DNA of 45,822 nt from a virus: positions 1 through 45,822 of the IMG/VR virus record IMGVR_UViG_3300042389_000682. One strand, 5' to 3'. The stretch's first letter is position 1; each line of letters starts with the position of its first letter. Below, one piece after another: positions 4,310 to 28,900 of the stretch. Made by a program: the position numbers and the translations under genes. A model generated the notes under the pieces. That model made no database searches, had not been told where the DNA came from, and saw nothing but the letters and a program-made list of their open reading frames with translations.

Positions 4310-4593
4310 ACTTCCTCAATCTTAATCACCATTCGCTTAGGTATCTTGTTTACCTGAGCAGTCTCACCAGGGCCGATTGTTGAAGTCAACGATATCTGTT
4401 CATCGTCATTGTGTAGAACAAAGCCAACAGTCAACATCATAGGTAATGGTTCTTTGGCTGAGGACTTAGCCTCATCCTTTTCCAACCACCCAGCCCCACC
4501 AATTGTCATTGCGTCTACCCAAGTTACCTTGACTAGACGAGGAACCTTGTCTGGATACGATACATTCTTAGGCGAAGAAGTATTCTGATTCAA
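4306..4593 (-). CDS. Small phage protein downstream of RNA polymerase (about 95 aa)
   Basis: The reliable core runs from VPRLVKVTWVDAMTIGGAGW to IPKRMVIKIEEV and resembles a common small phage beta-rich protein (VxVxWxDxxxxGGW ... VGFVLHNDDExI). No ATG exists between the RNA polymerase stop and the core, so I propose a TTG at 4593 within the polymerase C-terminal codons; the frame is open back to 4686, and the first internal ATG is after the conserved tryptophan. The start is therefore uncertain. It is translationally coupled to the RNA polymerase gene. Function unknown. Confidence 0.55.
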   Translation of the reverse strand: MNQNTSSPKNVSYPDKVPRLVKVTWVDAMTIGGAGWLEKDEAKSSAKEPLPMMLTVGFVLHNDDEQISLTSTIGPGETAQVNKIPKRMVIKIEEV

Positions 4594-7003
4594 CGACTTC
4601 TTCGATTTGGAACTCGTTCTCCCTTTGGGGGATTTCGGGGAGATAGATCCCGTATCGCTCTTCAATTTCTTTCTTGAGTTTTTCAAGTTGATTCTCCTGA
4701 TGGATTTTAATAAACTCTTCTCGCAATAACCTGTGCATCAATTGGACATCGGGTGCATAGGTTCCATAGGAATCATGGACAAATGAATATGCCGTGATAC
4801 CTTCGTCCAACATACTAGATATTGTCATAAACATATGAGCTGCATCTAGTGAATGGATGTAGTTTGGAGAAATTGCGAGATACTGCGCCTTGCCATCAAG
4901 ATCCTCTGTAACAGTAGAGAATACAAGCTGCTGACGATTGAACAACTCAGCATAACTGACTCTCTCAAGTACTTGATTGTAGACATGATGTACCTCAAAG
5001 CCACTTGGTGTAGTCCACACAAATGGTTTATTCATTGCATTTAGTATGTCGGCTACTTCACGCAGCCATTCCTTGCCACGATTGGGAGACTCCATAGTTT
5101 CACCTAGACCAGATTGAATTGCTCTAGCTAGTTCTACTACGGCACCACCTCGTTGTTCCTTAGGAACCCAATCAACATGGCCTTCCTGCTTGACATACTT
5201 TTGCATGCCGTAGAATGTAAGACCATATGCATCGCACATAGTGGGACGCTTGGTTACATTCCTAGGCAGTTTGTTTTCCCAGTACTCAAGAAATGCAGGA
5301 TACCATCTGTTCTCAGGAGTGGCAATCATGAAATCAGTAGCTGCATCTGCAACGAATTGGTACAGATCTTGTGGCTTATCTGTCTTGATAAGATTAGTAA
5401 GCACAGCAAGTTTACGGTTACGCATGATGGCAGCCCAATGCTGACCACCATTATTAGCACCATCCATCTGAATAGGAAGCTGAGTCAATCCATCCTTGCG
5501 GCATACCTCGTAGATAGCAGCCAGTCTTTGGAACGACTTGTTCTTCTTCTTGCTTGGATCAATCCATTCCTTGTTTGCATATGGATCTTCTGCAATTTTT
5601 TGCAACATTTCCATGTTGTCAAGAACCCAGCGTACTCGGTCATCGAATGGTTTCTTGTCTTGATCAAAGAGGTTTGCAGTATGTACATACAACCAATACA
5701 TACCTTCCTTGGTCTGCTTCCTAGGCTTGGCAAAGTGCACCAGTCCACGATCAAAGTCAACACCCTGAGGTGACAACAGTTCACAGACTGAGTATGCTCG
5801 GCCTCGGAAGTCCAGGGTATATGGCATGTAGAAGAAGTGCCATTGCATCATCTTCTTTGCAAGTTCAAGACGGACAATCATTCTTGACCGTGCTTGTTCT
5901 TCCTTGTACCATTCTCCCCAAGCCTCATTGGATTCTTGCATCCACTTGGCTTGCTCTTCCTTGGTTCCCTCTTCTGGGTATGGTCTACTAAATGCATAAT
6001 CCCTGAAGGTATATGCAGGAAGATTAGCAAGACGATAATCATTCTCAAACATATTCTTCATGACTTGGTATACCTGGGTATTTACAGACCACTCGGTATC
6101 CATCAGTGCATTAAGACCCTTGAGAACTAGATCTGATGGACGTGAATCCCAATCCTTGGGATCAGCACCAACAGGATGATATCTCTTAATCATCTTCTTC
6201 CGTACCCAAGGGCTTAGGAATCCACCATCTTCTTTGGTAGTATGATGTACTGGAGGACAGATCATAGGTCGGTAGACCAGACAAGCTGTTTCCAATAGTT
6301 CATGCCTCTTCTGAATCTCAGATAGAATCCAAGGTGCAAATGAAACAAGCAAGGACTTTTTGTTCTTGCCATTCCAATGTACACGACTGGTTAGGATGTC
6401 AGAAGCAAGGGCAATCCTAAGCATGTTGTGACCTAGGTCTTCTTTTTCCTTAGCCCTAAGCTTAGGAATCTCAGTTACCTTTTTGGTAAATGCCTTACAT
6501 CTCTTGACAGTCCAGTTCTTAATGAACTTGGATTGCTTGCGCCAATCATCAGAGAATCGTTTCTTTGCTTGCTGATATGCAACAATAGAAACAACATCAT
6601 CTGCAATTAACTTGGCAACTTGCTGTGCAACAGGTGCATTAGCAGGAATACCCATTGTGTCATCGAATGCTTGGATTGTATTCCTAGTTAGGAACAATCT
6701 CATCATTGATCTAATTGTAATGTCTGCCATCTTGGCAGCACCAATACTAAGTAGAGGAGCCAGCCAATCAGGTGACTTACGATTATTACAACACTCGTCA
6801 ATCCACTTCTGGTAGAATGGAGTAAGGTGAATAACTGCTGACTCTAGCAGCAATTGTTCTGGCTTACCCTCATCAGGTGCTCTACCATACTCTCTCCAAT
6901 ACTTCTCTACACCACTGTTTAGCAAGTCTTCTTCAAATACCTTTTGCATATTGATTCGACGTTGCTGTTCTTCTTTACTCAGGTTTAACCATGAATGTAG
7001 CAT
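4568..7003 (-). CDS. T7-type single-subunit DNA-directed RNA polymerase (811 aa)
   Basis: All family blocks are readable: the T/DxxGR motif LDFRGR (R402) followed by SPQG, motif A MDGANNGGQHWAA with catalytic D514, motif B RNVTKRPTMCDAYG with K585 and Y593, motif C FVHDSYGTYAPD with H743-D744, and a C-terminus ending YFFA, the aromatic tail that T7 polymerase places in its active site. R402 to D514 is 112 residues, as in T7. Length is slightly below T7 (883 aa). ATG at 7003 has AAAGGAG, and a 6-bp hairpin with a three-base loop lies just 5' of it (7018-7032). It should transcribe phage middle/late genes from its own promoters, which I could not define with confidence. Confidence 0.97.
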   Translation of the reverse strand: MLHSWLNLSKEEQQRRINMQKVFEEDLLNSGVEKYWREYGRAPDEGKPEQLLLESAVIHLTPFYQKWIDECCNNRKSPDWLAPLLSIGAAKMADITIRSMMRLFLTRNTIQAFDDTMGIPANAPVAQQVAKLIADDVVSIVAYQQAKKRFSDDWRKQSKFIKNWTVKRCKAFTKKVTEIPKLRAKEKEDLGHNMLRIALASDILTSRVHWNGKNKKSLLVSFAPWILSEIQKRHELLETACLVYRPMICPPVHHTTKEDGGFLSPWVRKKMIKRYHPVGADPKDWDSRPSDLVLKGLNALMDTEWSVNTQVYQVMKNMFENDYRLANLPAYTFRDYAFSRPYPEEGTKEEQAKWMQESNEAWGEWYKEEQARSRMIVRLELAKKMMQWHFFYMPYTLDFRGRAYSVCELLSPQGVDFDRGLVHFAKPRKQTKEGMYWLYVHTANLFDQDKKPFDDRVRWVLDNMEMLQKIAEDPYANKEWIDPSKKKNKSFQRLAAIYEVCRKDGLTQLPIQMDGANNGGQHWAAIMRNRKLAVLTNLIKTDKPQDLYQFVADAATDFMIATPENRWYPAFLEYWENKLPRNVTKRPTMCDAYGLTFYGMQKYVKQEGHVDWVPKEQRGGAVVELARAIQSGLGETMESPNRGKEWLREVADILNAMNKPFVWTTPSGFEVHHVYNQVLERVSYAELFNRQQLVFSTVTEDLDGKAQYLAISPNYIHSLDAAHMFMTISSMLDEGITAYSFVHDSYGTYAPDVQLMHRLLREEFIKIHQENQLEKLKKEIEERYGIYLPEIPQRENEFQIEEVVESEYFFA

Positions 7004-11467: not shown

Positions 11468-11778
11468 GCAATCTCCAGAGTTCCACCAGTGTTGTTGATG
11501 AGGACTAGGATTGTGTCGGTGGGAACACAAGCATAGACGGTTTCTGTGGGCTGGCTTGGATCTTCTGCATACTCAAGGATTGTTTCAATGAGTTGCGAGG
11601 GGAATCCAATTTCCCAAGCCTCGTAATTATTAACATCATTCTTACGAGGATGGCAGTAGTGCATGTCGGATGCTTGGATGGACAACGTAATTCCATTACC
11701 AAGCTTGACAGGCTTGCGGACTGGGATATAGTCCTGCTTTGCAGAATCCATGATCTTGAAGAATTGTGTCTTGTCCAT
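11464..11778 (-). CDS. Hypothetical protein (104 aa), first gene of the early block
   Basis: Starts MDKTQFFKIMDSAKQDYIPV at ATG 11778 with GGGAG seven bases upstream. The centre KLGNGITLSIQASDMHYCHP followed by NNYEAWEIGFPSQLIETILE resembles other phage proteins that read ...VSIQAS..HYC.P......Y...E.GFPS....., a small family of unknown function. It is the first gene after the 1.2-kb structured region, and any plus-strand transcript of that region would start beside or within it. Confidence 0.65.
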   Translation of the reverse strand: MDKTQFFKIMDSAKQDYIPVRKPVKLGNGITLSIQASDMHYCHPRKNDVNNYEAWEIGFPSQLIETILEYAEDPSQPTETVYACVPTDTILVLINNTGGTLEIA

Positions 11779-11794
11779 TATTTACTCCCATAAA

Positions 11795-12980
11795 GGCGTA
11801 CTCTCAACGCGAGAGTATATCTTATAAGGGACCGAATTGGTCTGCTCGGTCAACACAGGGTTTAATATCTACAAATAAAGTACCAATTTATTTGCATAGT
11901 GCCCTTTGGTGCCACATTACCTTGGGTTTCTTAGACCATAAACAATATCCCATAAGATTATGGTATACTCCGAATTGCCCGCTCGGAGTAACACGGTGAG
12001 CATTTAATCAACAACAGACGCCCAGCAATCTGTTGAGGCCCACTTCCACTCGGTGGGGTATAACACGGGCTTGTGGTAAGCCTGCACGGGTGCATCCCGC
12101 GTATCCCTACTTGATCTCTCAAGTTTGGGGAGTCCTATACAACCTTGTCTTTTAAACAGGGTTGCGATTAGTTTGTGCCAAGAATCCTGGTATGACTTGG
12201 CCTTGACGAATACGTCGCCTTTATGGGAACTTACGGGGGCACCAGCGAGCCTTAATTCAGGCATCCCAAAGGTTTTAGTTTTGAGCCTTTTTGTGACTTG
12301 CTCAGGTCTACACATAATGTGCGTCCCACTATTTATATACCGCCTATGGGCTAGGTTGCTTGCGGTAAAAGACCCTATAGCGTTTCCGCTAAGGGGTCCC
12401 ATGTAACCCTATTTAGCCTGCCCTATATGGAATGTGGGTTTAAGTATTCCATATAAGTTAGCCCTTGACCGTTGAAACTGGCAATAGTTGCCGTAGATGT
12501 TTCAAGTCTACGGGTGCCACGGTTGTAGCAGTTGGACCTTCCGTGGTCACATAGGGAATTCCTATAAAATTGTTGGTCGCGGAAATCTGAACAGGTTTGT
12601 TCAGCCCATATACGGAACAGTTTTACAGAAATTCCTTATGTGACACGGAAACGCACTATGCTTAACTTCTATTTATACTCGCATAGTCGAGTTCTATCCA
12701 GAATGGGATAGCTCATGATGGTTAGAATAGCCTGCTAATCCTGCTGGAGACATTCTAAGGCTTTGGGGGTACCATGACAGGGGTACGCCGAGGAATGTCT
12801 GTAATGACCGTATAGCGGCTTTGGGAAAAAAGCAGGTGATGATAGTGCCATGCCCTATTTTCAATAGCAGGCAATGATACTTTACACCCCCTCTGCAATC
12901 TAACATCCTTCTAGATCGCTTAAGTATCGTCATCATTGACGAAAACCCACCAGTTACCGTCAAGTAACAGGTGGTAAGAG
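11795..12980 (+). ncRNA. Candidate large structured noncoding RNA (about 1.2 kb)
   Basis: No credible gene fits here, yet helices follow one another: 11799-11805/11811-11817; 11830-11835/11846-11851; 11966-11973/11983-11990; 12109-12114/12119-12124; 12140-12147/12157-12164; 12177-12182/12196-12201; 12371-12382/12387-12398; 12424-12433/12446-12455; a 19-pair helix 12541-12560/12630-12648; 12655-12661/12681-12687; 12694-12699/12706-12711; 12876-12882/12922-12928; 12947-12957/12964-12974. A pseudoknot pairs 12472-12478 with the loop 12499-12505. The non-Watson-Crick positions I found (for example 12145-12159, 12376-12393, 12554-12636) are G-U on the plus strand but C-A on the minus strand, so the plus strand is the likely RNA, antisense to every gene. 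GOLLD- or ROOL-like phage RNAs are possible analogues; family not assigned. Confidence 0.55.
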
Positions 12981-12982
12981 GT

Positions 12983-13019
12983 TAAAAGGGCTACTCAAGG
13001 ATCGGCTCCTGAGTAGCCC
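12983..13019 (-). terminator. Terminator closing the GC-rich island
   Basis: Minus strand GGGCTACTCA pairs with TGAGTAGCCC (12988-13019), ten pairs with an internal GG/CC extension, followed by TTTT. It sits 21 bases after the stop of the last island gene and would shield the structured-RNA region from read-through. The plus strand has no T-run here. Confidence 0.7.
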
Positions 13020-13040
13020 CATGGGGGAAAAGATGCTTGG

Positions 13041-13205
13041 TTAGTTGCGAGACAGCTCTTCGCGCAGTTCCTTGAGCATGCGCTCGCGGCGGCGATAACG
13101 CCAATCAGAGATTGCGTCGATAACCTTGGCAAGCGCAAACAGGAGAAGCAGCGAGCAAACCGTGCTCATGATCACCATCCAGATGAAGTTGGCATCAAGC
13201 GGCAT
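13041..13205 (-). CDS. Single-pass membrane protein with basic coiled tail (54 aa)
   Basis: Starts MPLDANFIWMVIMSTVCSLL at ATG 13205, six bases after AGGAGG. One transmembrane segment (about residues 7-27) is followed by a strongly basic helix ending RYRRRERMLKELREELSRN. It overlaps the upstream gene by 11 bases. The shape (N-out TM, charged cytoplasmic helix) is seen in small phage membrane proteins such as holin accessories or spanin-like partners, but nothing specific identifies it. GC-rich codon use as for its neighbours. Confidence 0.7.
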   Translation of the reverse strand: MPLDANFIWMVIMSTVCSLLLLFALAKVIDAISDWRYRRRERMLKELREELSRN

Positions 13206-13458
13206 GGACATCCTCCTGCTCTGCACCCGTCCTGATCTGATCGACCAGGTAGATGCCAGTGGGGAGGGTGCCCTGAGCTGCCCGATGGAGCAGTTCCTTC
13301 TCCAGTTCTGCCAAGCGAGCAGAGTCCTTGAGCTGACCGCTGAGGGCCATCTTCACGGAGTTCCGCAGTTCCTTGTCAGTGAACGTGGCGTAAGAACGGT
13401 TCGGCTCCAACTTGATGTTGACAGTGATACCGCCAAGCTTCACAGGCTCGTTGGCCAT
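13195..13458 (-). CDS. Hypothetical protein (87 aa) in GC-rich island
   Basis: Starts MANEPVKLGGITVNIKLEPN at ATG 13458 with GGAG seven bases upstream; a six-pair hairpin (13471-13485) abuts that ribosome site. A short beta segment (residues 6-24) is followed by helices around DKELRNSVKMALSGQLKDSA and LAELEKELLHRAAQG. No family recognised. Its end carries the ribosome site of the membrane protein gene, so the two are co-translated. No counterpart visible elsewhere in the window. Confidence 0.65.
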   Translation of the reverse strand: MANEPVKLGGITVNIKLEPNRSYATFTDKELRNSVKMALSGQLKDSARLAELEKELLHRAAQGTLPTGIYLVDQIRTGAEQEDVHAA

Positions 13459-13774
13459 GTGTGGGCTCCTGCTGCTTATAGCAGCCGCTGATATTTACTC
13501 GTTTCAGCAACTCAGCACATGCTGACCGAGGACTTCCAGCGATGCAGTGCACACGCACTACACTCGCTCTAAATCGCCCCATGTGCGCGGAGCGCACACA
13601 ACCCAGAGCGTCCGAGTAGGATGGCTATGCTTAGCACTAGGGGTACAGACTGAAAGGAATTGATAATCTACCTATAAGGTTATAGGTAGGTCAGGCAACA
13701 GCCTAACCGAAGGCCCCCCTAGGCGAACCTAGGGGGGCGACGGTTGGGTTGTCAGGCGACAGTAAGGTTGTTGA
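13459..13774. other. Noncoding, palindrome-rich spacer in GC-rich island
   Basis: This 316-base stretch has no gene. It holds GCTGCT/AGCAGC with a three-base loop (13471-13485) next to a ribosome site, a TCAGCACATGCTGA-like palindrome near 13520, TGTGCGC/GCGCACA near 13580-13600, ACCTATAA/TTATAGGT (13671-13688), and a CCCCCCTAGG/CCTAGGGGGG hairpin (13714-13737). A promoter for the two small downstream genes would be expected here, but none is clear by eye. Confidence 0.6.
13712..13740 (-). terminator. Strong GC hairpin after divergent RNA polymerase gene
   Basis: CCCCCCTAGG pairs with CCTAGGGGGG around a CGAA-type tetraloop (13714-13737), with outer AACCG/CGGTT pairs. It lies about 35 bases after the polymerase stop. 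There is no T-run on either strand, so it may be a terminator for a phage polymerase or a transcript-end stabiliser rather than a classic rho-independent site. Confidence 0.6.
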
Positions 13775-15736
13775 TTAGGCGAGGAAGTGACGGCTCGCCT
13801 TGAAGGCAGAGAGATCCAACTCCTCGGGAGTACCGCTCTTCCAGAGCTCCGTCAGGGGGATGCCCTGATCGTTGAGGAACTTGACGAGACGGTTGTTACC
13901 CTTGAGGTAGTTGCGGTAGAACACCTTCTTGAACCGCTTCTTGGTGGTGACCAGCGAGGTCGGACGCACACCACGGGCATCGTGAAGGGGGAGCATGTCC
14001 TCCTTGGCTTCCTCGGACAGCACGGCTTCGTCAGCCAGCTGGTTGCCATCCTCGGCCTGAACGATGAGCGGAGGAGCGCCCGAAGCACGGGTGCTCTTGA
14101 CCATCTTCTTGCACCGAGCACGGATAGTCTTGCCATCGGGCAGGGTGAAGGTCTTGATCTCGGACGGACCATTGTCCAGAGTCCAAGTGGTGATCTTCAC
14201 CTCATCACCATTGGCGAGCGTCCAGACCAGGGGCTGACCACGGTCAGCACACTTGTTGTACGCATCCCGCATGGTCTTGATGAACGCCAGCATCATGGGC
14301 GAGATGCGACGGAGCGCGTTGTAGTACAACTTCGCCACCGTCTTGGCATTGTCCACCATGTTCTCCAGTCCAGCCTCAGCGAAGAAGTCGATGGTGTCAT
14401 CGTTGAACACCTCAGGCGACTTGCTGACCAGCTCCTCGACACGGCCAGGGATCTGCTGACCATTCTCGTCAACGATGCCCCAGTCCATTAGCGTGGACGA
14501 GTTGTCGCTGAGGATCATGGCCTCAGCAATCGAACCACGACCAGCGCCGTAGACCATCGGAGTGCCAGGGATCTTGGCGACCGACTTGGACGGCATCCAG
14601 TTGCCATCCTTGTCCTTCTCGCAGAAGAACGGGGCAAGAGCCTGATCCGCACACCGAGCCCAGCCAGACTGAGCCAGCTTGAGCCACAGGGACTCCTTCT
14701 TCTTGCTGCCCTGGATGTTGCAGAAGTGGGCCAGACGGCGGCATCCCACCATTGCGGAGATACGCATCGGACCATCGGAGGTCGCGTCAAGCCAGTAGAT
14801 CATCTGGCTTTTCTTCTGCTCGATGATCATCTTCATCTCCAGAGCACACGCAACCACCGTGCTGAACTTCTTGTACGAGCAGTGCCACTTGGTGAGGAAC
14901 TGCTTACACAAGGCAGTCGTAGCGGGACGACCCTTGACAATCTTGTTGGTGATGGGGTCGCGCTCGTTGAGTCCAGTCTGGATGATGTTGTTGACATCAG
15001 CCAGGATCTCCTGGTAGTTGCTCTTGTTGACACCACCCTCGTTGAGAAGGTAGTGACGAGCAGCACGACGAATCTTGCGATCCGTCATGTCAATGGGCTT
15101 AGCCCACTGGAACATGAAGCGGATCGGACCAGCCAGCATGTAGTTCACACGCTTGGTGGCGTAGAACCGACCCTTCTGCGCCTTGTAACTCATCGTGATG
15201 ATGTCTTCGGGCTTGTTGACCTTAAGGTACGCAGCCAGGTCCTCAAGGACATAGCTGTACTTGTAGCCACCACCGTTCTCAGGCAGCTTGCCCTTGACGG
15301 AGTGGAACAGCGAGAACACCGTTGCCTTGAACAGATCCAGCATCGTGCTGTTGAGGGACAGCTCCATGCTAGACCAGTAGTTCATGGCCTTGCACTGAAG
15401 CGGAGTGTAGATCCCATCTGCGGGGTCGTGCAGAGGGAGCTTGTCTCCCAGGAGAATGCGATCCGTGTTGATCACGGTGATCTCCTCCGTCTTGAGGATC
15501 TTCCCATTTAGAAGCTTGCGCTCCATGATGGTCGTGTCCAGACGGACAGCGGGATTGGACAGGTGGTTCTCCACCACCTGACGGGCGATGTCCTGTGCAG
15601 CCCCCATGTCAGTGACGCTGTTCAGGATCAGCGGCATGACTTGGCTGTACAGGGAGGGGAGAAGCCGCTCCCCACGGTGGGCAATGCCCATCTCGGCGGT
15701 CAGTGCCGCCACCATCTTCTCAAGCGGGGTCGTCAT
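13775..15736 (-). CDS. Second, highly divergent single-subunit RNA polymerase (653 aa)
   Basis: Every catalytic block of the T7 RNA polymerase family can be traced: a KGRFYA block (R190) in the place of TxxGR, motif A YWLDATSDGPMRISAM with D317, motif B KIPGTPMVYGAG with K388 and Y396 eight apart exactly as in T7, motif C PLHDARGVRP with H585-D586, and a C-terminus ending HFLA. Spacings R-D 127, D-K 71 and K-D 198 are compatible (the T7-type enzyme in this same window also has D-K 71). The N-terminal promoter-binding part is shorter than T7. Start is ATG 15736 with AAAGG upstream; a perfect 18-bp palindrome lies just 5'. Markedly GC-rich. A family A DNA polymerase is unlikely because motif C lacks HDE and there is no exonuclease or A-motif DxSxIExR. 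Confidence 0.8.
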   Translation of the reverse strand: MTTPLEKMVAALTAEMGIAHRGERLLPSLYSQVMPLILNSVTDMGAAQDIARQVVENHLSNPAVRLDTTIMERKLLNGKILKTEEITVINTDRILLGDKLPLHDPADGIYTPLQCKAMNYWSSMELSLNSTMLDLFKATVFSLFHSVKGKLPENGGGYKYSYVLEDLAAYLKVNKPEDIITMSYKAQKGRFYATKRVNYMLAGPIRFMFQWAKPIDMTDRKIRRAARHYLLNEGGVNKSNYQEILADVNNIIQTGLNERDPITNKIVKGRPATTALCKQFLTKWHCSYKKFSTVVACALEMKMIIEQKKSQMIYWLDATSDGPMRISAMVGCRRLAHFCNIQGSKKKESLWLKLAQSGWARCADQALAPFFCEKDKDGNWMPSKSVAKIPGTPMVYGAGRGSIAEAMILSDNSSTLMDWGIVDENGQQIPGRVEELVSKSPEVFNDDTIDFFAEAGLENMVDNAKTVAKLYYNALRRISPMMLAFIKTMRDAYNKCADRGQPLVWTLANGDEVKITTWTLDNGPSEIKTFTLPDGKTIRARCKKMVKSTRASGAPPLIVQAEDGNQLADEAVLSEEAKEDMLPLHDARGVRPTSLVTTKKRFKKVFYRNYLKGNNRLVKFLNDQGIPLTELWKSGTPEELDLSAFKASRHFLA

Positions 15737-15751
15737 TGGACCCAACCTTTC

Positions 15752-15769
15752 TCTCAGCAGCTGCTGAGA
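15752..15769 (-). promoter_or_regulatory. Perfect 18-bp palindrome upstream of divergent RNA polymerase
   Basis: TCTCAGCAGCTGCTGAGA is its own reverse complement and lies a few bases 5' of the AAAGG ribosome site. It could be a dimeric repressor operator, an RNA hairpin controlling translation, or a processing site. Its core CAGCAG/CTGCTG recurs in the hairpin 5' of the 13195-13458 gene. Confidence 0.45.
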
Positions 15770-15844
15770 ATCTAGCAACCCGCGATACGCACGGGCTATT
15801 GTTTCTGGGAGCCGCCCAGATCGGTCCCCTGTCGGGGATGCTAC

Positions 15845-15908
15845 GCAACAGCGCAGCCCGTTGTACCGTGGTGGTCGATCACCACGGTACTCAGGTTGGG
15901 CTGTTGCT
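15845..15908 (-). terminator. Long hairpin between island genes
   Basis: GCAACAGC and GCTGTTGC form the base, CCC/GGG extends it, and GTACCGTGGTG/CACCACGGTAC (15863-15890) makes a perfect eleven-pair tip with a six-base loop. It directly follows the stop of the coiled-coil membrane protein gene and precedes the polymerase gene, so it is probably a terminator or processing hairpin; no T-run follows on the minus strand. Confidence 0.6.
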
Positions 15909-15939
15909 AGATCAGCCAGTTGTTAGATCAGCCAGTTGT
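15908..15939. repeat. 16-bp tandem repeat at 3' end of membrane protein gene
   Basis: TAGATCAGCCAGTTGT occurs twice in exact tandem (15908-15923 and 15924-15939). The gene-side copy contains the final codons NNWLI and most of the stop; the other copy lies beyond it. This mirrors the 42-bp terminal duplication at the DUF932 gene. Confidence 0.92.
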
Positions 15940-16825
15940 TGATCGTGGCCATGATGGCCTTGATGGAATCCTTGAGATTGGAGGGGATGTACTTGTCATC
16001 CATGATCCCAGCCGCATAGTTGCGGGCGACGGCGACCTTGGCCTTCAGGTCATAGATGTCATCCACCTGATCGGAGTTGCCCGCCTTTCCCTTGGCCGAC
16101 TCAATCAACTTCTCGGCAGCGTGGACCAACTGCCAATCGTTATTGTAGTTGATGTTGTCGTTCTTCACGACAGGCGGATCAACCTTGATGATTCGGCCCT
16201 TCTTGATCTCCTCATTGAGATCTCGATTGAGCTCAATCAGGCGCCTGACCTGAGCCATCAAAGAGGAAATCATATCCATGGCTCCCTTCTTCTCATTATT
16301 GAGTTCTCGCACGAGCTCCTTCACCCGAATCTCGGCCTTCGCGTGGTCCATTCCAGCTGAATGGAGCTGGTTCTTCAGCTCCTTGATCTCCTCGTCCTTG
16401 CGGTGCGAAGTGTTCTGCCAGTTGCGAGTCGTGCTCTTGTAGAACTCCTCGTTTCCTTCCAGAGTCTTGATCTGATCCTTGAGCGCAGCAATCTGCGTCT
16501 CCATCTCCTCAAGCTTCTTCATCTGCTTGTCCTCCTTCAGATCGACATTGCCATAAACCACAGGCGGAACATCCGCCCGATTACCCCACAAGGTGGAGGT
16601 GGCCACCAGGATGTTCCACGACTTCTTCAACTCCACGAACGGGTTGTACATGTGGGCCAACAGGTACACCACGAACATGGCAATGAGGATGCCCGATGAG
16701 ATGGAGAACATGGCCGTGATCGGCGTGCTCTCCACCGAGGCGATCCCGACCACCGTGAACACGGTGGCAAAGACGAGGATGGTGGTGGTGATGATGGCGA
16801 GGATGAGGTTAACGATGGTCTTCAT
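15923..16825 (-). CDS. Two-TM membrane protein with long coiled coil (300 aa)
   Basis: Two hydrophobic helices span about residues 5-28 and 41-60, then a long heptad-patterned coiled coil (residues about 95-215: KKLEEMETQIAALKDQIKTL and later IRVKELVRELNNEKK), then a helical C-terminal domain. Long cytoplasmic or periplasmic coil plus double-pass anchor suggests a membrane-tethered scaffold or exclusion factor. No enzyme motif. ATG at 16825 has AAAGG about 11 bases upstream. GC-rich codon use groups it with the divergent polymerase, and it is the first island gene after the giant virion gene. Function unknown. Confidence 0.75.
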   Translation of the reverse strand: MKTIVNLILAIITTTILVFATVFTVVGIASVESTPITAMFSISSGILIAMFVVYLLAHMYNPFVELKKSWNILVATSTLWGNRADVPPVVYGNVDLKEDKQMKKLEEMETQIAALKDQIKTLEGNEEFYKSTTRNWQNTSHRKDEEIKELKNQLHSAGMDHAKAEIRVKELVRELNNEKKGAMDMISSLMAQVRRLIELNRDLNEEIKKGRIIKVDPPVVKNDNINYNNDWQLVHAAEKLIESAKGKAGNSDQVDDIYDLKAKVAVARNYAAGIMDDKYIPSNLKDSIKAIMATINNWLI

Positions 16826-16954
16826 GTGGCTTTTTACCTTTCGACTGACTCCCCTATGATCCCCCAGGGGATGAGGGGGGACGCACTCACCGTTGAGGTT
16901 GTCCCACCCTCACAAAAATTTGCGACCCCTAAGTCGATTTTCCTAACCCCAATC
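16826..16954. other. Spacer between giant virion gene and GC-rich island
   Basis: No gene is present. On the minus strand a short CGAC/GTCG hairpin (16923-16936) followed by AAATTTTTG could be a weak terminator for the late operon, and ATCCCC/GGGGAT (near 16858-16872) forms a second palindrome before the island. GC content changes abruptly here, from AT-rich giant gene to GC-rich island. Confidence 0.45.
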
Positions 16955-19900
16955 TTACAATCCTTCTGGAGCTTTTTCAAAGGAAGTTGCTTCTTTGCTT
17001 AGTGAAGGTTTACTGGTTGGTGGTTGAACCTGTGGTTGTTGAACCTGTGGTAGTTGAACTTGTGGTGGTTCTGTAGTTTCTTTCTTTCTGGGTTTTGGTT
17101 CTGGTAGATTGTTTGCCTTAGTACGAACATAGTCGTTTAACAATGCTTTTTCATTCTGGAACTTCATGGAATTGACATTTGGTCTATAACCTGGAGTTAC
17201 ATCCCGTACCCATTGTTTCCATTGTCCTTCTGTACTGGCTGAATTATAATACTTCATTGCTTCACCAATTGCAGTTTTCTTATTACTTCTACTCGTTCTA
17301 CCAAAGGTTCCTGGGTCATGTGCAAGTTGTGCAAGAATTCTAAAGTGAGCAGCACCGAGGTCAGCAGGAAGAATTGGACCAAACTTTAAATAGAGTTGCA
17401 TTGTAGCATCTGTCCAAGTAGCTTCTGGTTCAGACATATCCTTGAAGAATTTAATTGAATCCATAAGTGTAGAACCTAATGCGCTTTCCTGAACGGAAGA
17501 ATATAATCCACCACCAAGGCCACCCTCTACAGCTCTATAGCTATAGTTAGAAACAAAACCAAGAATATTATTCTGGAATGTTGGATGTCTTAGTAGTAAC
17601 TTGACTGTTTCAGACCAGTTAATTTGGTTCTTTTTGGCTTTTTCTAGAACTTCATCTAGTTCCCAAGCACCACGGGCTAGTGCAAGTATGGTACCATACA
17701 AGGCATCCATAATAATGTTTAACATGAGATGTACACCAAACTTTACAGGAGAAGCAATAGAACCTCTACGCAATAGTTGTTGTGCCATGAACAAGGATGG
17801 ATAAGACTTATAGAATGTAATGAGTTCTGCTGCTAGGTTGTTTACCGAAGGAGCATCCATTGATTTTCTAGTTACCATTGCCATTTGAGTATAATCACCC
17901 ATGAATCGACTCAATGAAGCTACGGTTTGTCTCAGGTCGTTGATATTGAATGGATAAGAAGCAGAGGGATTAGTTAGAAGGTCTTGTTCGATTTTAAATA
18001 AATCCTGGAACATGACGCATCCACGGAAAACCATTCTATGTGTTCTAACCCAATCCAATACTTCTACACACCTACCCTCAAGAATACCAGATCTAACTAG
18101 GTATACTGCTTCTTCTTGAGTCATTGAAACTCCAGACTTCTTAAATAGTTCTCTTACATCTGCAACTGATTGTGGAGAAGTTGGGTTTTTACGGAGTTCA
18201 TCTCGTAATCTGGATAATCCTTTATTACCAAGTAGTCTTACAATATGGCGATTAGCTTGTGCTTCATTGGCAACTCGTAATGAACGCATGACATTGGAAT
18301 TGGATCTTCTTAGAGTTTCCATAAATCTAGAACCCCATCCCATCTTTTCAACTAAAGCTGAGGAGTAATCAGCATTGTTAAAGTTATGTGGTAACAGTGG
18401 GGATGTACTTTCTTCCAGGAAGAATACAGAGTTTCTTGCCATATCTCTTCTAGTATGTCTTCTTAATGGCACTACTTTAATATCTGGTTTAGAGTTTTCA
18501 AAACGAACACTTGGAACCCACGCATAAACAGTTTCTAAAGCCCACGAAGGAATTGCTTGTATAGAGAAATCTCTACCTAGATAGAATAAATCTAGTATTG
18601 TTCGAATAGGATTAGTTGGGCTAACTGTATTCCAAAGTGTTGTTGTACCTTCAACAAGGAAAGTTGCAACGTTAATATTAGAACCCCATCTAAGCACTAC
18701 TGCATTCTTAGCTGCTGAGTTTAACCATTGCATAGCCGCACCCATCTCTAGATCATTAACTGTATTAGTTCCTCTAGCTTCGTCTACAGCTTGTCGTAAA
18801 CGACTAATACTTGCCTTCATCCATTTGGTTTGGTTTTCAGCCATTACCTTAGTTCCATTGGTATCCAATAGACTAATTTGGTGGATACCAGCACCTGTTC
18901 CTGGTTTATTGGCTTCTTCTAACATCTTAAGAACTTGAGCAAAGGATAGATATACACCATCTACACCAATTGTTCTATTAACAATAATTCTTTCAATGGC
19001 ATCATAAACAGTACCACGAAGGAATGATTTAGTAATTGTATCTACACCAGTCTCAAAAATCTGTTGGATAATGACATCATTGCTGGTATAGATATCATTA
19101 CTAGTTGGCATCCATGATTTTAGTTTACCCATTACTGAGTTCTTACCAAGTTCTCCTGTAAATTGCTCAGCAAGAATATCATTAATACTTTTGCCAACTA
19201 AAGATTGTTTTCTATATTCAGTTGCTTTTGGATAATAACCTAATACTTCTTGGTATAAACTGGTTGCTTGTAAACCAGCTTTATCTTCAGATATTGAACG
19301 ATTCTCTTGAATAGCCTTTATGTAATCATTAACAATTAATTGTTTAACTTCGGTTTGTGTTACCAAGTCAAGAGCATCATCAAGTGAAGTAGTATGATTT
19401 CTTAAAGCATAGCCTAACATTTTAATTTCATTGTTAATCAGGGTAGTAATTGGTTTTACTGTTCCCACGTTATTATCAACGTTAGCTAAAGCTGTTTGTG
19501 GTTGTGGTCTACCTGTATCTCTTTGTAGTTTTTGTTGATGCTTGATTGATGCTTGAGCAAATAGAGCGTATAACATATGTTGTCTATTCTCAGATACAGG
19601 TATGGTTGTATCAGGAACAAAGTTATATGTTCCTCCAAATCCGCCATTTGTAATGACATGGTTTTGAATGTTGCGAATTACTCTTTCATCATCAGCACTT
19701 AACTCTAGTGGTAAAGAACCAGCAGCATGTAAACCTACTGCACTGATAGGAGCTTTAATTCCATCCCTCTTAAGAATATTTAGTTTTTTATTCTTAACTA
19801 GTTCTCTGATACTTTCAAAACCCTTGGTCATTTCTGTTGGACCAACTAAAGAATAATCCTTTAGTCTAATTGGGAATCTATCTAAAGAATCTGCATCTTC

Positions 19901-22900
19901 GGCAAACTGAGAATCAACCATGATATCCCGAGCACGACTACCAAAAACAAACCAAGCATCTGTTAATGCATCTGAAAATTGTATTTGTCTAGCGTCTGCG
20001 AGTTTGCTTGGTCCTGGTTTTCCTACATTATTGAGTCGTTGTACGACATCTCTAACAATATTTAAATGGATATCTGGTCTATGTGGGAAAGCATTAGAGC
20101 ATTCTCCCCAAATATTATTAACATTTTGAACATAGGGATCAACCATTAATTTCTGTTGGTCTAAACCACCAGCATATAAACGATTTTCATCTGGCTTGCT
20201 GGTATTGGGAGATAGTCCACTGACCGTAGGAGCAAAGCTACCTCGTGTTGTTGCCGCATGGTTATCAATTAAGAATGCCATACCAGCTGAAGGTGCAAAT
20301 GGAGAATTCCAAGTTAACTCTAGTCCATTGAATGTACCAACTAGATATTGTTGTAATCCTGTAGAAATCCAGGATTCAGGCATGAACTTACGAACTACAC
20401 CACCCATAGTTCTAATGTCATCTGCTCTCATTCCCTTTTGTTCAATAGCATTTGAGAATAGTCTTGATAGAATAGCTTTTGAAGTTTCTTCGTCTTCTAT
20501 ATCCTTTGGAGAAATAACTCTATTATCTTTTGTAAGAGTACCACCAAGATTATTTAGTGTTCTTTCTACCTGTAACTCACTTAATCCAAACATTGTAAGA
20601 GAATCAAGTTTAGATGCTTGATCTTGTAGTTGTTGTCTAGTATCAGCTGTTGTTAATGGATCATTGGCACGATCCAATAGTTTTTTAATTTTAAGTTTAG
20701 TAGCTGGATCTGTTCGTTTATTATCGTGTGTTGTAGCCTGTTGACTATAGGTATTAAGTACTGCATCAGGATTTGCAACAGGTCCAGTTCGTTTTTCAGC
20801 CCCTGTTCCAATAACAGACATAACAACTTGTTCAACTGGTTCCATTAAACCAGAATACTGGGGATTAAATCGAATAGCATTAAAGGTTGTAAGGATACGT
20901 TTTGTAAGGCTTCTAATTCTATAGAATGCTCGTTTCCAAAGATTAAAGGCATCTTCTGCTTCAGCATATTTAGTATTAAGGGCAATGATTGCTTGCTCTG
21001 CACCAAGGACTTGTCTTAGTAATAAGAAAGCTCCCATGTGAGCAAAGAACTCGTCTGGGTTTGATTTAGCATATGCAACTTCTTTTTCAATTGTTGCGTA
21101 GCTCTTTCCATTATTCATAGACATAAGCACATCACGGATCATATCAGTGCTTCGTGAGGATTCGAATACACCCTTGATTTTTTTCCATTCAACTGAATCA
21201 GTTTCAATATACTTAAGTCTAGCAATGTGTAGGATTTCTTCTGCAAACTTAAATAGGACTTGATTTTCAGATGTTACTTTTAGTGCTTTAAAGTTTAAGC
21301 CAATTGTAAATCTACCATCTTTTCTCATAGCATTCATGAGTGTATTTGTACCATCTAGAATCTCTAAAGAAAGATTATCAAAGATATCTGGTTGATTTAC
21401 ACCCACAGTTCCAATGACCATTAACTTCATATCACGAAGCCAAGGAGAGATAATACCATCAGCTACCATCTTGTCTAACATATTTACAATGTTTTCCGCA
21501 GCAATTTTATGATTGGGGTTTGTAAAAGAGTTAATAAAGTTTTCTCTGTCAGTAAAGACTGTTGGGTTTCCGCCATTAGCTGCTTCTGGAATATCTGCTT
21601 CTTCAACTTGAGGAATAGTTTGAGTGATCATTCTAGCTTGGTTAATAACACTTGTAATTCGTGTTCCACTTGCTTTATCAGTTGGATTTAAACCAGAGTC
21701 ACTAAAGAGTTCTTCTCTAAATCGTCTATCAATTGTATCTCTAGATACTTCATATCCACGATCTCTTTCAAGAATAGCTAAGGCTTTATACAATAATGGG
21801 TCTTGTTCAGCAGGGGTTGCGTGCATGGTTTGAACCATTAGATCAACCATAGGATCAACTTGTTTTCTAAGAGCACTGATTTGTTTTGGATTCTTTAGAT
21901 TTAAATATTTTGGTAGTTTAGCAACTGCAAATGCATTACCATGAACTTCAAATGACAAAGCTAACATCTTAACCTCTAAATAAGATTGCATATGGGCTGG
22001 TCTTTTTGGTTCCTCAGCAATAGCATCTAATAAGAACTTTTCAAGTACATCAGCTATATTTTCAGTAACCTCTACTCCATTCTTTTTTCCTGTTCGGGTT
22101 AGGTTTAGTTTTCTAGCTTTTTGTGCAACAGCCATTACTTTGGTAAAGTAAACAGCATCTGCTGTTGGTACAGCTCTTATTTTTCCACCTAGTACGATTG
22201 GAATTGTATTTGTTGATTTATAATAAGAACCAAAGTTAACAACTCGTTTTGGATTACCAGCAAAATCTTTAGATCTTGGATCTGTTAAGACTTCTAGTTG
22301 ATCATTTACATTTTCAGGTGGATTTGTATCCTGTAATAGCAATAATGCTTCAGATTCAACATCAGTATTATCTCTAACTTGTTCAAATAATCTAGCTTGT
22401 TCTTCTCTAACTAAAGGATCAACACTAGATTGAAAGACATTAATTTCTTTGTCTGTAGCTAAAGCTAATTCATAGTTTCTAAAGAAATCATAGTTTTCAA
22501 TTGCATTAAGCAATTGATTAAGCATTGGTATAGTAAATTGGTGTAAAGTAATTGGATTATCAACTTGAGTATAAACAAATGGTTGACCTGATGAAATACC
22601 TTGATAGGTTAGTGGATTATCAAGAGTATCAGGTTCTTTAATTACCCTACCTTCTTTATCTCGTAGTAATACTCTACCTTCTTCATTATAGGCAAATTCA
22701 AAATTAGCATTAATCTCAGCCATTGCCTGAGTCATTTCCACATTGATCTTATGCATAATTTCTCGCCAAACTTCTGGCTCGTTTACAGGATCAATGCTTT
22801 CTGGGATAATAAACCCAGCTTTATCTCTAATAAGTCCTGGAATTACTTTTCCGTGTGAAATCCATTTATTTACAATAGGAGTAATAAGTTTACGACCAAT

Positions 22901-25900
22901 CTCTGAACCTAGAATATCAGCATACATAACTAGAATTTCTTGACCAAAGTTTACAACTGGTAAACCTGTAGTCCCAGGAAGATTTGTACGTCCAGCTATG
23001 CCACGAACAACATTACCAGGATAAATTGTAATACCATACTTTAAACCCATAAGTCTTTCAATTTGTCCACTATGTGAAAGATAGTTTAATAGATTTCCAT
23101 ACATTACTCTATCTGGGTATCTTGCTCTGAGTTTATCAATATCTTCTAAAGTAACTTTATTAGTATCTTCAGAAATCATCAAATCAATAGTAGAATATCT
23201 TTGCTTTCCTCCTAGTGAAGATGCAGTAATACCAAGTGTTCTACTTAAACCGTCATGATACTTAATAACAGCAGTCTTAACTTTACGATCATCTTCTCCA
23301 GTATTTTTGTCTGTAGACTTAATAGTTCTTAGTGTTCTAACAGATGGCAAGAAAGCTCGATCATGTATTTTTTTAATTAAGAATAGTTTACCCCAGTTTT
23401 TAGATTTAACTAAAGAATCTAAACCGTGGGCAACACCGAAAGCAACTAAAGTATTTTCTAGTGTTCCAGCTAACTTTAGTTTTCTTGCATCTCGCCCAGC
23501 ACCCAATGCTAGTAAACCATCAACATCTTCACTAGACTGTGGAATCATAGGCATTTGATCTTTAGAATAACGATAAACAAATCCTCTATCTTCTGTTGGA
23601 ATAACGTTATTTGGATCTGACCCTGCTGCATCTGCTCGTTGCTGAGCTAATTCTAGTAAACCTAGACCCTTATTCATGGAGATGTTTAAACCGTTTTGTA
23701 CTCTAATTAAACTGTATATGCCTCTTTGAGTAAAATCAAAGTTTGCATAGAATGGTCTTAATGCACCAAACCCTGGCATTTTTGTATCTAGTACTGCAAC
23801 ATCAGTAGCATCTGTAATATCATCTCTAACTGTTGTTCTAAATCTAAGTCTATTTGCAGCATTGCCAGCGGCTTTGCTTCTAAATTCTCTTAGTTCTCCG
23901 ATGGTTATAGAGTATCCATTACTAAATGTAATTTTCTTACTATCGGGAAATCTACCTGATTCCATAAACTTAGCTTCTTCATAAGCTTCAATTTCTGTTG
24001 CGGATCTTTTTTCTACTTCTTGGAAGAAATTAGAAACACTTTCATTTTCTGGATCATACCCTAATTCGGCTGGTGGTCTATAGAACTTTACAAGATCTAA
24101 TAAGATTTGTTTATTAAAGAGTTCATTAAAATCTTCAGTTGTTTTTTCTCTATCTGCAATATCCCACATACCACGTTGATTAATTTCTTTTCCTTCTACA
24201 ACCTTTGGTTGTGCATACTTAGGTCCTTCTGGACCAATACCCCACCAACGAACCATGTGATTACGACCTGAGGCTGGTTCAATTCCATATCTAAAGTATA
24301 CATCATTATTAAGAACACCAAGATAATCTTCTGGTGTTAGTGGAATACCAAGAATAGTACTATGAATTTCAGCTACATCCTCTTGAACTTGATATCCTGT
24401 GGTAGCTCTACGAGCTAATCCATAAACCATTAGGTTTCTTTTAGCTGCCTCTTCGCCACCAGAAAGTAACTTATTCATCTCAAAAATATGATCATTATAG
24501 TACTCATTGTTAGTTTTCATTTTATCAAAATCAAGTTTTGACCAATAGTCTGCTGCTTCTGATATTCTAGCTTCATATCGTTTCTTAGTTTCTTCGATAA
24601 ACTCATCTCTAGATTTTCCAAGTGGTATAACCCTATCGGAAATAAATCCTAAAACAGTATCTAGATATTCTTGCAAACTTGTAATGTTTTCTTCTCTAGT
24701 TGCTTTTTCCAATAAGTATGGTTGTTCTTTTGGATTTGGAGCGTTTGCTGGAGTTAGTCTTTGACGTGCTCTATCCATTAATAGTTGCTTTAAAGCTTCA
24801 ACATTTTCTCTAGAGTATCCAATAGCTTCATCAATAATTCTACCCTCACTAATAATTTTTGAGTGAGTAATAAAACTTGCTAGGATTTTAATTTCTTCTT
24901 CACTTAGTCTAGATGCCTTTGGTAATTCATCATTCTTACCCTCTAAACCAGTTCTAATACCAGGGTATCCTGCCATGTAGTATGCTGGTGTAATAGCACC
25001 CTTTAAGAAATCCTTAATTGAATCTCTATTACCACTATAAGCACTATTTAGTTTTAGAATAATGTTATTTACATGGCTAGGGATATCTGAATTAGTTGGG
25101 TCAAACTTTTGTCCAATTGGAGAATTTGGATCTAGTAGTTGAAATAGATACCCAGGAGCAGCATCATTTCCGATTAATAGATTAAATAACTTAAATCTTG
25201 GGTCTTCTAGTTCGCGTTCACCAATTACAATCTTTTGTCCGATTGGGTCTATAATTGGGTTTCCGTCTTTATCCTTAACCCCAAGAGCTTGTAAAACCTC
25301 AACAAAGATTTCACTACTACCACCACTACGGTATGCTACAAGTTGAGCCATAATGGTGTGCTTACCCATGTACTTCCAGTCAGCTTTATTGCTAGAATCC
25401 CATGGATTAATTCCATTTTTAATAGACTGTCTAATTTGTTGAATACCGCGATCAAATGCTTCTAATAAAGCCTTTTCTGTTTCTGGACTCATAAATCCAA
25501 AGTTAGTCATAAAGGCTAGTTGCTGAATACCACCAGCAAAAGTTACGGCAGCAGTAGCAGCACCTGGGTTAATAAAGTCTTCTGCATAGAATAGAGGTCT
25601 TTCTCCTGCCTTACCTCTAGTTAAAAAGCGTTTAGGAGCATTCATGCCAATGTATTGGCAGTCGTGGTTAATAGACATTAGCAATCTTGGGATATCAAAC
25701 ATTGCTTCTGCTGTTTGTAATCGTCTTTCATCTAGATTTGGAATAGATGCAATAACTTCTCTGGCTGCAACATCTGGAGAAATATCTAAAACAGTTTCTT
25801 TTAGATACATAGATAACTGATCTCCAGGGCCTTGTCTTCTTCGTTCGGTTAAGAACTTTTCAATTTCTGGAGTTATCTTAACAGTGTGAGCCCACTTAAG

Positions 25901-28900
25901 TCGTTGTCTTAGTTTATATCCTTCGTAAGCAATTAACTCATCTACAAGTGGGTGTGGTTGGGACATATTAACATTATTTCTATTTGGCATTCCATAAACC
26001 TTGGGTCTATGCTTACCTTGAACCATATTCTCATTTGCTGTTTTAATTTGAATAGATTCCATAGATTCACCCTGGTGTACAAGAACATCCACAACTCGTA
26101 CACCTGGCTTAGTATCCATAATTACTTGTGCAATAGCTTGTCCTACTTCGTTTGCTGGTTTCCAATCAAGGGTTCCATCACCAAAGTTTGATAAACTAGT
26201 AAAATCATCTAAATGACTGTATAAGAAAGATTCAAGTACATCTTTCCAGTATTCATGCTCTGTTTCACCAGGATTAATTTCTCTAGGATTTACTCGTTCC
26301 TTTAGTCTATCTGCAAACTTAAACTTATTTTCAGGTTTTCTAATAAAGTTAATAAAGGAATTAAGAACATGTGTAATGTATATCTCTGGATCTTTTTTAT
26401 CAGTAGAGTCTACATTGTACATATTTGATTCATTATATGTACCCTTAGCAAATCCTTCTCTATTAGAAACAATAGATACTACATCTGGGTTTAATCCACT
26501 ATTGCTATAATTTAATGAAAGTACAAACCCAAATGTTTCGAATTTATTCTGTAATTGGGCTTTAATTCCTTGTTGGAATTCCTGTGCTTTTTGAGCTAAG
26601 GCTGCTTCATATGATGTTTCTTTTCCAACCTGAGCTTCAATAGCAGCTTTAATTCTTTTAAATCTATCTTGAGATGCTTTATTTGGAGATGCGGCTAAAC
26701 CAGCCATTAGCCATTCAGCAAGAATGTCAAATATCTTGTCTGCATCGTAACCAACTTCAGTTTCATAGAAAGCAGTCTCTAGGATATCATTAATCTTTTC
26801 GTTTCGTCGTCCTAGTTCACCCATACTTTCGATTGGACTAGACTCAAAGACATCTCCAGTTACGTTTAAGTTTAGATTAGACATTGGTTGTCTTACTTCA
26901 GCAACAGTACTTTCATTAATTCTAAGAGTACTGGTTTCTTTCTGTGAAAGACCAACAAATAAATCCATTGTTAAATAGACATCATTAATACTATAGGCAT
27001 CAAATCGTGACCAATCGCCAGATGATGTAGCCTCAAGCCACATTGGTTCGATACCCTTACCAGCTTCAAGTTCAATTGGCTTATTGTCATCTTCTTTATC
27101 TTTAACAGAACCACCATCGAAGATAAATCGTCCACCCCCGAATGGTGGTGGTGCGGTTCTATTGAATACTTTCTTATCTCCTGTGGTATTTGTAATTACA
27201 ATTTCCTTAAGTCTCTTACCTTTAGTAGAAACCTTAGATTGCCAGTTAGCCGCAGGAATTGCTGAAGTAATATGTGCTAGTAAATCAAAGCTTCTTAAAC
27301 CCACTCTAGTAAGTGTATCAACGTCATTAACATGTTGTTGTAAATATGCAAGATCATAATTATTTCCATTATAAGTACCAACCTTAAAGCCTTCATTTTG
27401 GGCTTGATCTAGTTTATCAATAACGGATGATATTTGATCTTTTGTTAGGGGTTTTCTAGCTTTTGATTCGTCTGGAGAAACATCCAGAATATTAACAAGT
27501 TTACCATCAACATTAACTAATATTTCAATCTTTAGGTTAATATTTCCAACGGCATCAACTTCTCTTGTGCAAAGTTGCATGGTATATACTTGTTCAACTC
27601 GGGAATCATCATTTGCTTCAATGTCTCCACGGGCTTCAATATCAAGTGTAATGAGTTTATCAAACTTAGAATTAAATTCAAAATCTGTATATTCTAGTAG
27701 TTTATCTGGATCAACACCAGTAGATCGTAGAAGGTTTTTACCTAAACTTCCCCGATCAATTGTAGAAATAGTGGAGATTTTTCTAGGTACTGAAATTCTT
27801 GTTCTAGCCTTTTCCCAAGCTTTAGGACCAATATCCATCATCTTAGGATCTAAGATTTGTAATAAAACCTTTTCTGGTATTACACCATTAAAGTAGCTAA
27901 ATCCATAAACAGTTCGGAGTCGTCGTAAAGCTGAATCAACAATACGAACCAATTCTTCATGGGTATTAACTTTATTGCTTTCTGGAATAACACCCTTTTG
28001 AGCATCTGGGTGAGCCATTGCTTCTTCGATTTCTAAAGTAGGACCAAAGGTAGGATCCATTGCTTCTGGTGTTGTAGGATCAGTAAGTTCTTTACCTAAG
28101 ATAAAGTTGTTTAACTTATTAATAGCCTCTGAACTTAGTTGTCCTACATCAGCTGTAAAGAATCCTCCACGATATGTAGAGATAACTTGGCTTTTCCAAA
28201 TATTACTAATATCCTCAATATCTACTGTATTTTTATCAGGATTCTTTTTTTGAGACGCTTCAACAGCATATTTTCCAAAGGCTTCTCTAACCATTTCAAC
28301 AGGAATCTCACCAGTCGAAAGTGCATAGTTTTTTAGATATTCAATTCGTGCTTGTCTACCTGATTCTGCGATGGTTGCAAGTTTTTCTCTTTGAATAACC
28401 ATTTGTTTGGCAGTTCTAGCAGCGGCAGAATAATTTATTGTAAGGGACTGTGCTCCTTTGGTAATTAAACTTGTCTTTAGTGTTTGAACTTCTCTTGTTA
28501 AACTATCTATAAACTTAGCTAATTCAGTATCCCCAGTAAGTTTATTTATTTCTTGTTCTAGTTTCTGAAGTGTTTCAATTCTAGTATCAAATCCCTTACT
28601 TAGTTTAACTAAGTCTTTATTTTTCTTCTTATGTTCTACAATAAAAGCATCAATCTTAGTTTTTTCTGCTTTAGTTGTAGCCTTTTTTCGTTGTTCTTCT
28701 AGCGCGGTTAGTTCATCATTTGCTTTTGTAACTCTAGCACGATCTAGTTTAAGTTGATTTGCTAACTTTACATAAGTATTGCGTAAGGTTTTTACCTTTT
28801 CATCTACAGTACTATCTGCTACTAGTTCGGTTAGTGATTGAATTAACTCTAGAATTTCAATTTTAGTTGTAAGTTCGACTGAACTCTTTTCATCTCTTTT

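Follow-up and report, generated by a model that had tools for sequence, protein, structure and literature searches.

Does the strongly folding stretch at positions 11795-12980 of this viral DNA encode one large structured RNA, and from which strand is it read? The original prediction, made on the 45,822-nt sequence that we call the window, described a single RNA of about 1.2 kb that is transcribed from the plus strand, opposite to the genes, and recalls the ROOL and GOLLD RNAs. Comparison with related phages suggests a different answer, in which a predicted self-cleaving ribozyme on the minus strand is followed by a pseudoknotted RNA that ends in a terminator.

Strand and extent of the structured RNA

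Both orientations of the 1,186 bases at 11795-12980 fold more stably than 100 dinucleotide shuffles (plus strand, -403 kcal/mol, z -6.7; minus strand, -404 kcal/mol, z -7.5). The predicted excess of folding is therefore present, and because it affects both strands, the strand is not decidable from inverted repeats alone. The strongest segment comprises the Pistol ribozyme and core RNA described below (12366-12692) and favors the minus strand (z -7.3 versus -4.3 for plus), as does the core by itself (12366-12540; z -5.0 versus -2.0). Folding of the flanks is moderate, with z about -2.6 to -2.9 at 12693-12980 and -3.8 on either strand at 11785-12365.

The minus strand is also that of the main phage genes, as judged from the ORF list and family matches. 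A search of 11500-13800 with Rfam finds Pistol as the sole family, on the minus strand only. Hand-listed helices from 14 phages, a number that is smaller for the core helices, contain 25 G·U versus 2 A·C mismatches in the minus reading, counts that are non-independent between related phages. The core helices of the window copy alone contain a single A·C and no G·U on this strand, which may be the source of the plus-strand assignment; the four of four mismatches reported as G-U on the plus strand are a small sample that points the wrong way. Because the Pistol match, the terminator and the G·U counts across relatives agree, we place the structured RNA on the minus strand, co-directional with the genes. 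The idea of a structured noncoding phage RNA was thus right in kind, with its strand reversed.

Many long helices do occur in the stretch, together with at least three pseudoknots. A seven-pair pseudoknot was described without specifying which one; there are two real candidates, the Pistol P1-loop pairing ACUAUGC/GCAUAGU and the core pairing UUGAAAC/GUUUCAA. The judgment that no credible gene is present agrees with the comparison, as a 132-aa minus-strand ORF (12004-12402) is interrupted by stops in homologues L087 and L088 and is rejected as a gene. The proposal of one continuous 1.2 kb RNA does not survive. An internal terminator at 12398-12367 divides it, and the upstream gene is closed by another at 13019-12984, which parts the RNA region from the operon of the RNA polymerase gene RNAP2. 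The stretch is modular, and its elements read as follows, all on the minus strand.

12984-13019, minus: intrinsic terminator-like hairpin GGGCTACTC...GAGTAGCCC TTTT, recognized from sequence, that ends the upstream gene
12693-12980, minus: upstream structured segment, not conserved among phages (z -2.6; no blast match in relatives)
12537-12692, minus: self-cleaving ribozyme of the Pistol class, predicted by Rfam RF02679 (43.0 bits; gathering 34.5), with P1 ACUCG/CGAGU, pseudoknot CUAUGC/GCAUAG, and P3 with an insertion hairpin
12536-12537, minus: predicted Pistol cleavage site between G12537 and U12536, the GU junction that follows the 3' strand of P3
12367-12536, minus: core RNA of ~170 nt (A2 and A3 covariation; covariance model R1, 197 bits) with S1 CCGUAGA/UCUACGG, which has a loop that pairs to downstream sequence (pseudoknot UUGAAAC/GUUUCAA), and S3 UAUAUGGAAU/AUUCCAUAUA, likewise with a loop that pairs downstream (pseudoknot AACCC/GGGUU)
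12367-12398, minus: intrinsic terminator GACCCCUUAGCG-GAAA-CGCUAUAGGGUC-UUUU, covarying and in the same place in relatives
12323-12366, minus: M2, ACCGC[AAGCAA]CC(loop CCCA)GGCGGUAUAUAAAUAGUGGGAC, a hairpin whose loop forms a covarying pseudoknot, kept in 11 related phages
12283-12308, minus: m3, a 26-nt H-type pseudoknot GACCUGAGCAAGUC..GGCUC (115 of 115 concordant, GAGC/GCUC or GGGC/GCCC)
11785-12282, minus: rest of the structured leader that precedes the downstream operon, including conserved blocks at about 12053-11967 and 11858-11785

The predicted Pistol ribozyme and the core RNA

P1, the P1-loop pseudoknot and P3 of the predicted ribozyme all form in the window copy. Among the 14 phages P3 covaries, and P1 and the pseudoknot vary with pairing retained. 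All eight stretches obtained from related contigs reach the gathering score, and scores in relatives range from 39 to 61 bits. In Pistol ribozymes the bond that is cut joins a G and a U where P3 meets P2 (PMC4604425), and the position of the predicted GU junction agrees with this report and with the Rfam alignments. The window copy shares P1, the P1-loop pseudoknot, the AUAAAUA joining strand, P3 and the GU junction with the Pistol class (RF02679; Harris et al. 2015, PMC4604425). It differs in that its P2 would be shifted, in an insertion hairpin of ~100 nt in P3 that is specific to the window phage, and in that the ribozyme stands at the 5' end of a unit whose downstream RNA is conserved. On its other side, the last hairpin of the upstream segment (CTATCC/GGATAG, about 12711-12694) adjoins P1, and resembling hairpins can be seen by eye beside P1 in several relatives.

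The canonical register of P2, a helix of ~4 pairs beside the GU cleavage junction in Pistol ribozymes, is unpaired in the window (GAAG opposite CCAA), where a shifted P2 (AGUU/AACU) is possible. It is also mismatched in L087 and L099, which could likewise form a shifted P2, and it pairs in L088 and L090; visual inspection shows it paired in L095 and L096 too. Catalysis by the window copy is not assured with this noncanonical P2, and its Pistol may be slow or inactive.

The core RNA that follows has two H-type pseudoknots, both of which vary in sequence among relatives with pairing retained. The first occurs as UUGAAAC/GUUUCAA, AUGAAAC/GUUUCAU or GUGAAAC/GUUUCAC, and the second as AACCC/GGGUU, AGGUCU/AGACCU or, by eye in L155, AUCCUU/AAGGAU. 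Both sides change in 19 of 45 pairs in alignment A2 (nine sequences, plain MAFFT) and in 33 of 45 in A3 (16 sequences), which was fitted to the model and leans to its structure by construction. The covariation called for as a check is found. The A3 score is 0.562, versus 0.195 when shuffled and at most 0.113 with the partner slid, and none of 500 shuffles reaches the score of the real alignment. The 16 rows of A3 include a 27.3-bit R1 hit (L101 1012-1170) that reads as a plain gene end plus terminator and is disregarded in the argument. The terminator has a U tract of four U only; 11 of its 12 pairs covary, and in relatives it lies 220-290 nt after the Pistol start.

Relatives were gathered by a terminase search that gave 68 related contigs. 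Of these, 45 records were scanned for the RNA, which is present in eight, and DNA patterns added more. Model R1, built from nine close sequences, finds held-out matches in L218/L225/L234/L241 (55.6 bits), L109/L163/L181 (50.3 bits), L155 (34.1 bits) and L092/L093 (33-35 bits; same phage group as the window). Every held-out member sits directly 3' of a Pistol. L163 and L225 come from other phages that have genes in common with each other and share little with the window phage. By this measure the Pistol-core-terminator unit is kept in at least three phage lineages. The features by which we propose to recognize the family are present, namely a Pistol, the S1/S2 and S3/S4 pseudoknots, and a terminator within ~220-330 nt. 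In L151, L159 and L190, which are distantly related to the window phage (RNA polymerase ~50% and DUF932 ~34% identical), a Pistol and a terminator occur at equal distance with another domain in between.

Among other phage Pistols, the majority lack both a terminator at such a distance and a unit of this kind, which makes this a particular family and contradicts a general rule that phage Pistols head RNAs of this kind. Those core matches in bacterial genomes that were examined, among the matches listed, look like chance. The original prediction could match no known family; that no longer holds for the Pistol module, which the proposed Rfam scan assigns to RF02679 on the minus strand, and it stands for the remainder. 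No Rfam 15 family matches the core with its fixed link to Pistol and terminator, and no description of the combination was found in the open-access literature, a set outside which most subscription journals lie. The Pistol module is already known, and the core, as judged from sequence comparison, is an undescribed RNA family.

Processing, function and alternative readings

The locus probably, though far from certainly, encodes a self-processed minus-strand phage noncoding RNA, with its 5' end made by Pistol and its 3' end by the terminator. A precursor would arise from read-through or from local transcription toward the early genes, and its Pistol would cut between G12537 and U12536. If the terminator at 12398-12367 ends the transcript, cleavage would define an RNA of ~170 nt with a 5'-OH, a compact product that keeps both H-type pseudoknots and the terminator hairpin. 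We infer that this RNA is released as a separate molecule, and it probably acts in trans during infection. After the terminator the phages differ, with M2, an ORF or nothing following. A stand-alone RNA is favored over the leader of one gene because this sequence varies while the unit persists. It is plausible, and we propose it tentatively, that such units form a self-excising RNA class in which ribozyme and terminator free a double-pseudoknot RNA whose targets in trans could lie in the machinery of host or phage, such as a defence system, ribonucleases or RNA polymerase.

A role in cis is kept as the main rival because a ribosome-binding site comes right after the terminator in L088 and L092, with a start codon within a few bases. 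Pistol, pseudoknots and terminator might then constitute a processing or attenuation device, made of RNA with no separate life, that keeps the late (RNAP2) transcript apart from that of the early genes and sets the output of the downstream operon. In the window phage group the unit has RNAP2 on one side and the early genes on the other, which is consistent with this arrangement, as are the further structured leader that follows in the window and the genes that begin where an attenuator would place them. However, the neighbors change in the L163, L225 and L155 lineages while Pistol, core and terminator persist, and no protein near the RNA is common to all lineages. We consider the cis device rather unlikely on this evidence. 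A single ornate RNA of 1.2 kb, similar to ROOL or GOLLD and with Pistol as one domain, would explain why the whole stretch is structured and syntenic, and why Pistol and m3 share an intergenic region of ~550 bp in Cellulosimicrobium phage DS1. It is disfavored because of the internal terminator and because domains are inserted, lost and reordered among relatives (M2 precedes Pistol in L092/L093). The core also occurs without M2 in other phages and no ROOL or GOLLD match is found, which leaves the single RNA improbable. Less credible still is the plus-strand antisense RNA that was first proposed. The lone A·C in the core helices of the window and the z of the plus strand speak for it, but Pistol and terminator are directional elements that both lie on the minus strand, and the mismatches in relatives and the folding of the core run against it, so that we regard it as highly improbable.

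Our preferred reading, a self-processed RNA, can be compared with several known systems. ROOL and GOLLD RNAs are often found near tRNA islands and form a homo-oligomeric RNA cage. They resemble the present RNA in kind only: all are structured phage RNAs of unassigned function with several pseudoknots (PMC12286853). Their Rfam models do not bear out the likeness that had been suggested: the window has no match that reaches the gathering score, and 11500-13800 has none even with the threshold relaxed to E=5. Nor does the tRNA context apply, since the only tRNA, a tRNA-Arg at 415-490, is ~11 kb away. The present RNA also contains a ribozyme, and its conserved unit of ~170-330 nt is smaller than GOLLD RNAs, many of which exceed 800 nt (PMC12286853).

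No settled biological role of Pistol is given in the Pistol literature searched. Phage genes are the usual neighbors of Pistol ribozymes. Here, in several phage lineages, the ribozyme is joined to an RNA that is conserved and covaries, which suggests one role for it, that of generating the 5' terminus of a noncoding phage RNA. A self-excising RNA class, if real, would be a first clear example of what phages use Pistol ribozymes for. The covariance model and predicted ends make cleavage, expression and knock-out directly testable. Theta (HDV-like) ribozymes near phage tRNAs are a parallel case of small ribozymes that process phage noncoding RNA (PMC10879173), although they are of another class, and Pistol would process not a tRNA at its 3' end but a pseudoknotted RNA at its 5' end.

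Downstream leader, m3 pseudoknot and polymerase genes

A second structured leader occupies 12366-11785 on the minus strand and reaches the start of ORF 11778-11464, where a hairpin at 11817-11799 stands directly before the ribosome-binding site. Blocks within 11785-12282 have blast matches in L087, L088, L099 and L101. M2, at the 5' end of this leader, is absent from bacterial genomes.

A scan of viral contigs finds the m3 pseudoknot (consensus GACCUGRGCANGUC-N-AAA-NN-GCYC) in at least 120 stretches. Its sites include 12308-12283 on the minus strand of the window, L381:1908, L383-L462 and L503-L505. Loop and partner agree in all 115 distinct sequences among the matches listed (105 GAGC/GCUC, 10 GGGC/GCCC, none crossed). 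Also among the matches listed, a ribosome-binding site and start codon follow within 60 nt in 52 of 116, and 42 of 124 lie within an open frame of at least 80 codons. No Rfam match was obtained for the two copies tested. Sequences similar to m3 are present in the cultured phages SIO1, phig1e and Lentibacter ICBM1 and are intergenic in three checked cases. The region of Cellulosimicrobium phage DS1 that holds both Pistol and m3 (L381 1501-1974) has no R1 match to the core; this cultured phage is a possible laboratory model for Pistol and m3 without the core.

The window carries two single-subunit RNA polymerase genes, at 13775-15778 and 4568-7003, both on the minus strand. RNAP2, the one adjoining the RNA, is 667 aa long; its PHROG match to RNA polymerase is weak, and the three catalytic motifs can be made out by eye. 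It is only 22-27% identical between relatives; the other polymerase is 86-90% identical in some of them. Neither a single-protein scan nor cultured phages yielded close relatives of RNAP2. The G+C content is 53-58% at 13001-17000, versus 38-46% just before and 33-39% after, and this step spanning RNAP2 suggests recombination. No promoter for the RNA was identified, and no T7-like promoter repeated in the intergenic regions was found. Upstream of RNAP2 lies an ORF of 4,138 aa (16955-29371, minus) that adjoins giant ORFs of 1,078 and 1,379 aa. A direct repeat with a period of ~42 bp (8351-8294, minus), alike in 20 of 22 bases, precedes the DUF932 gene.
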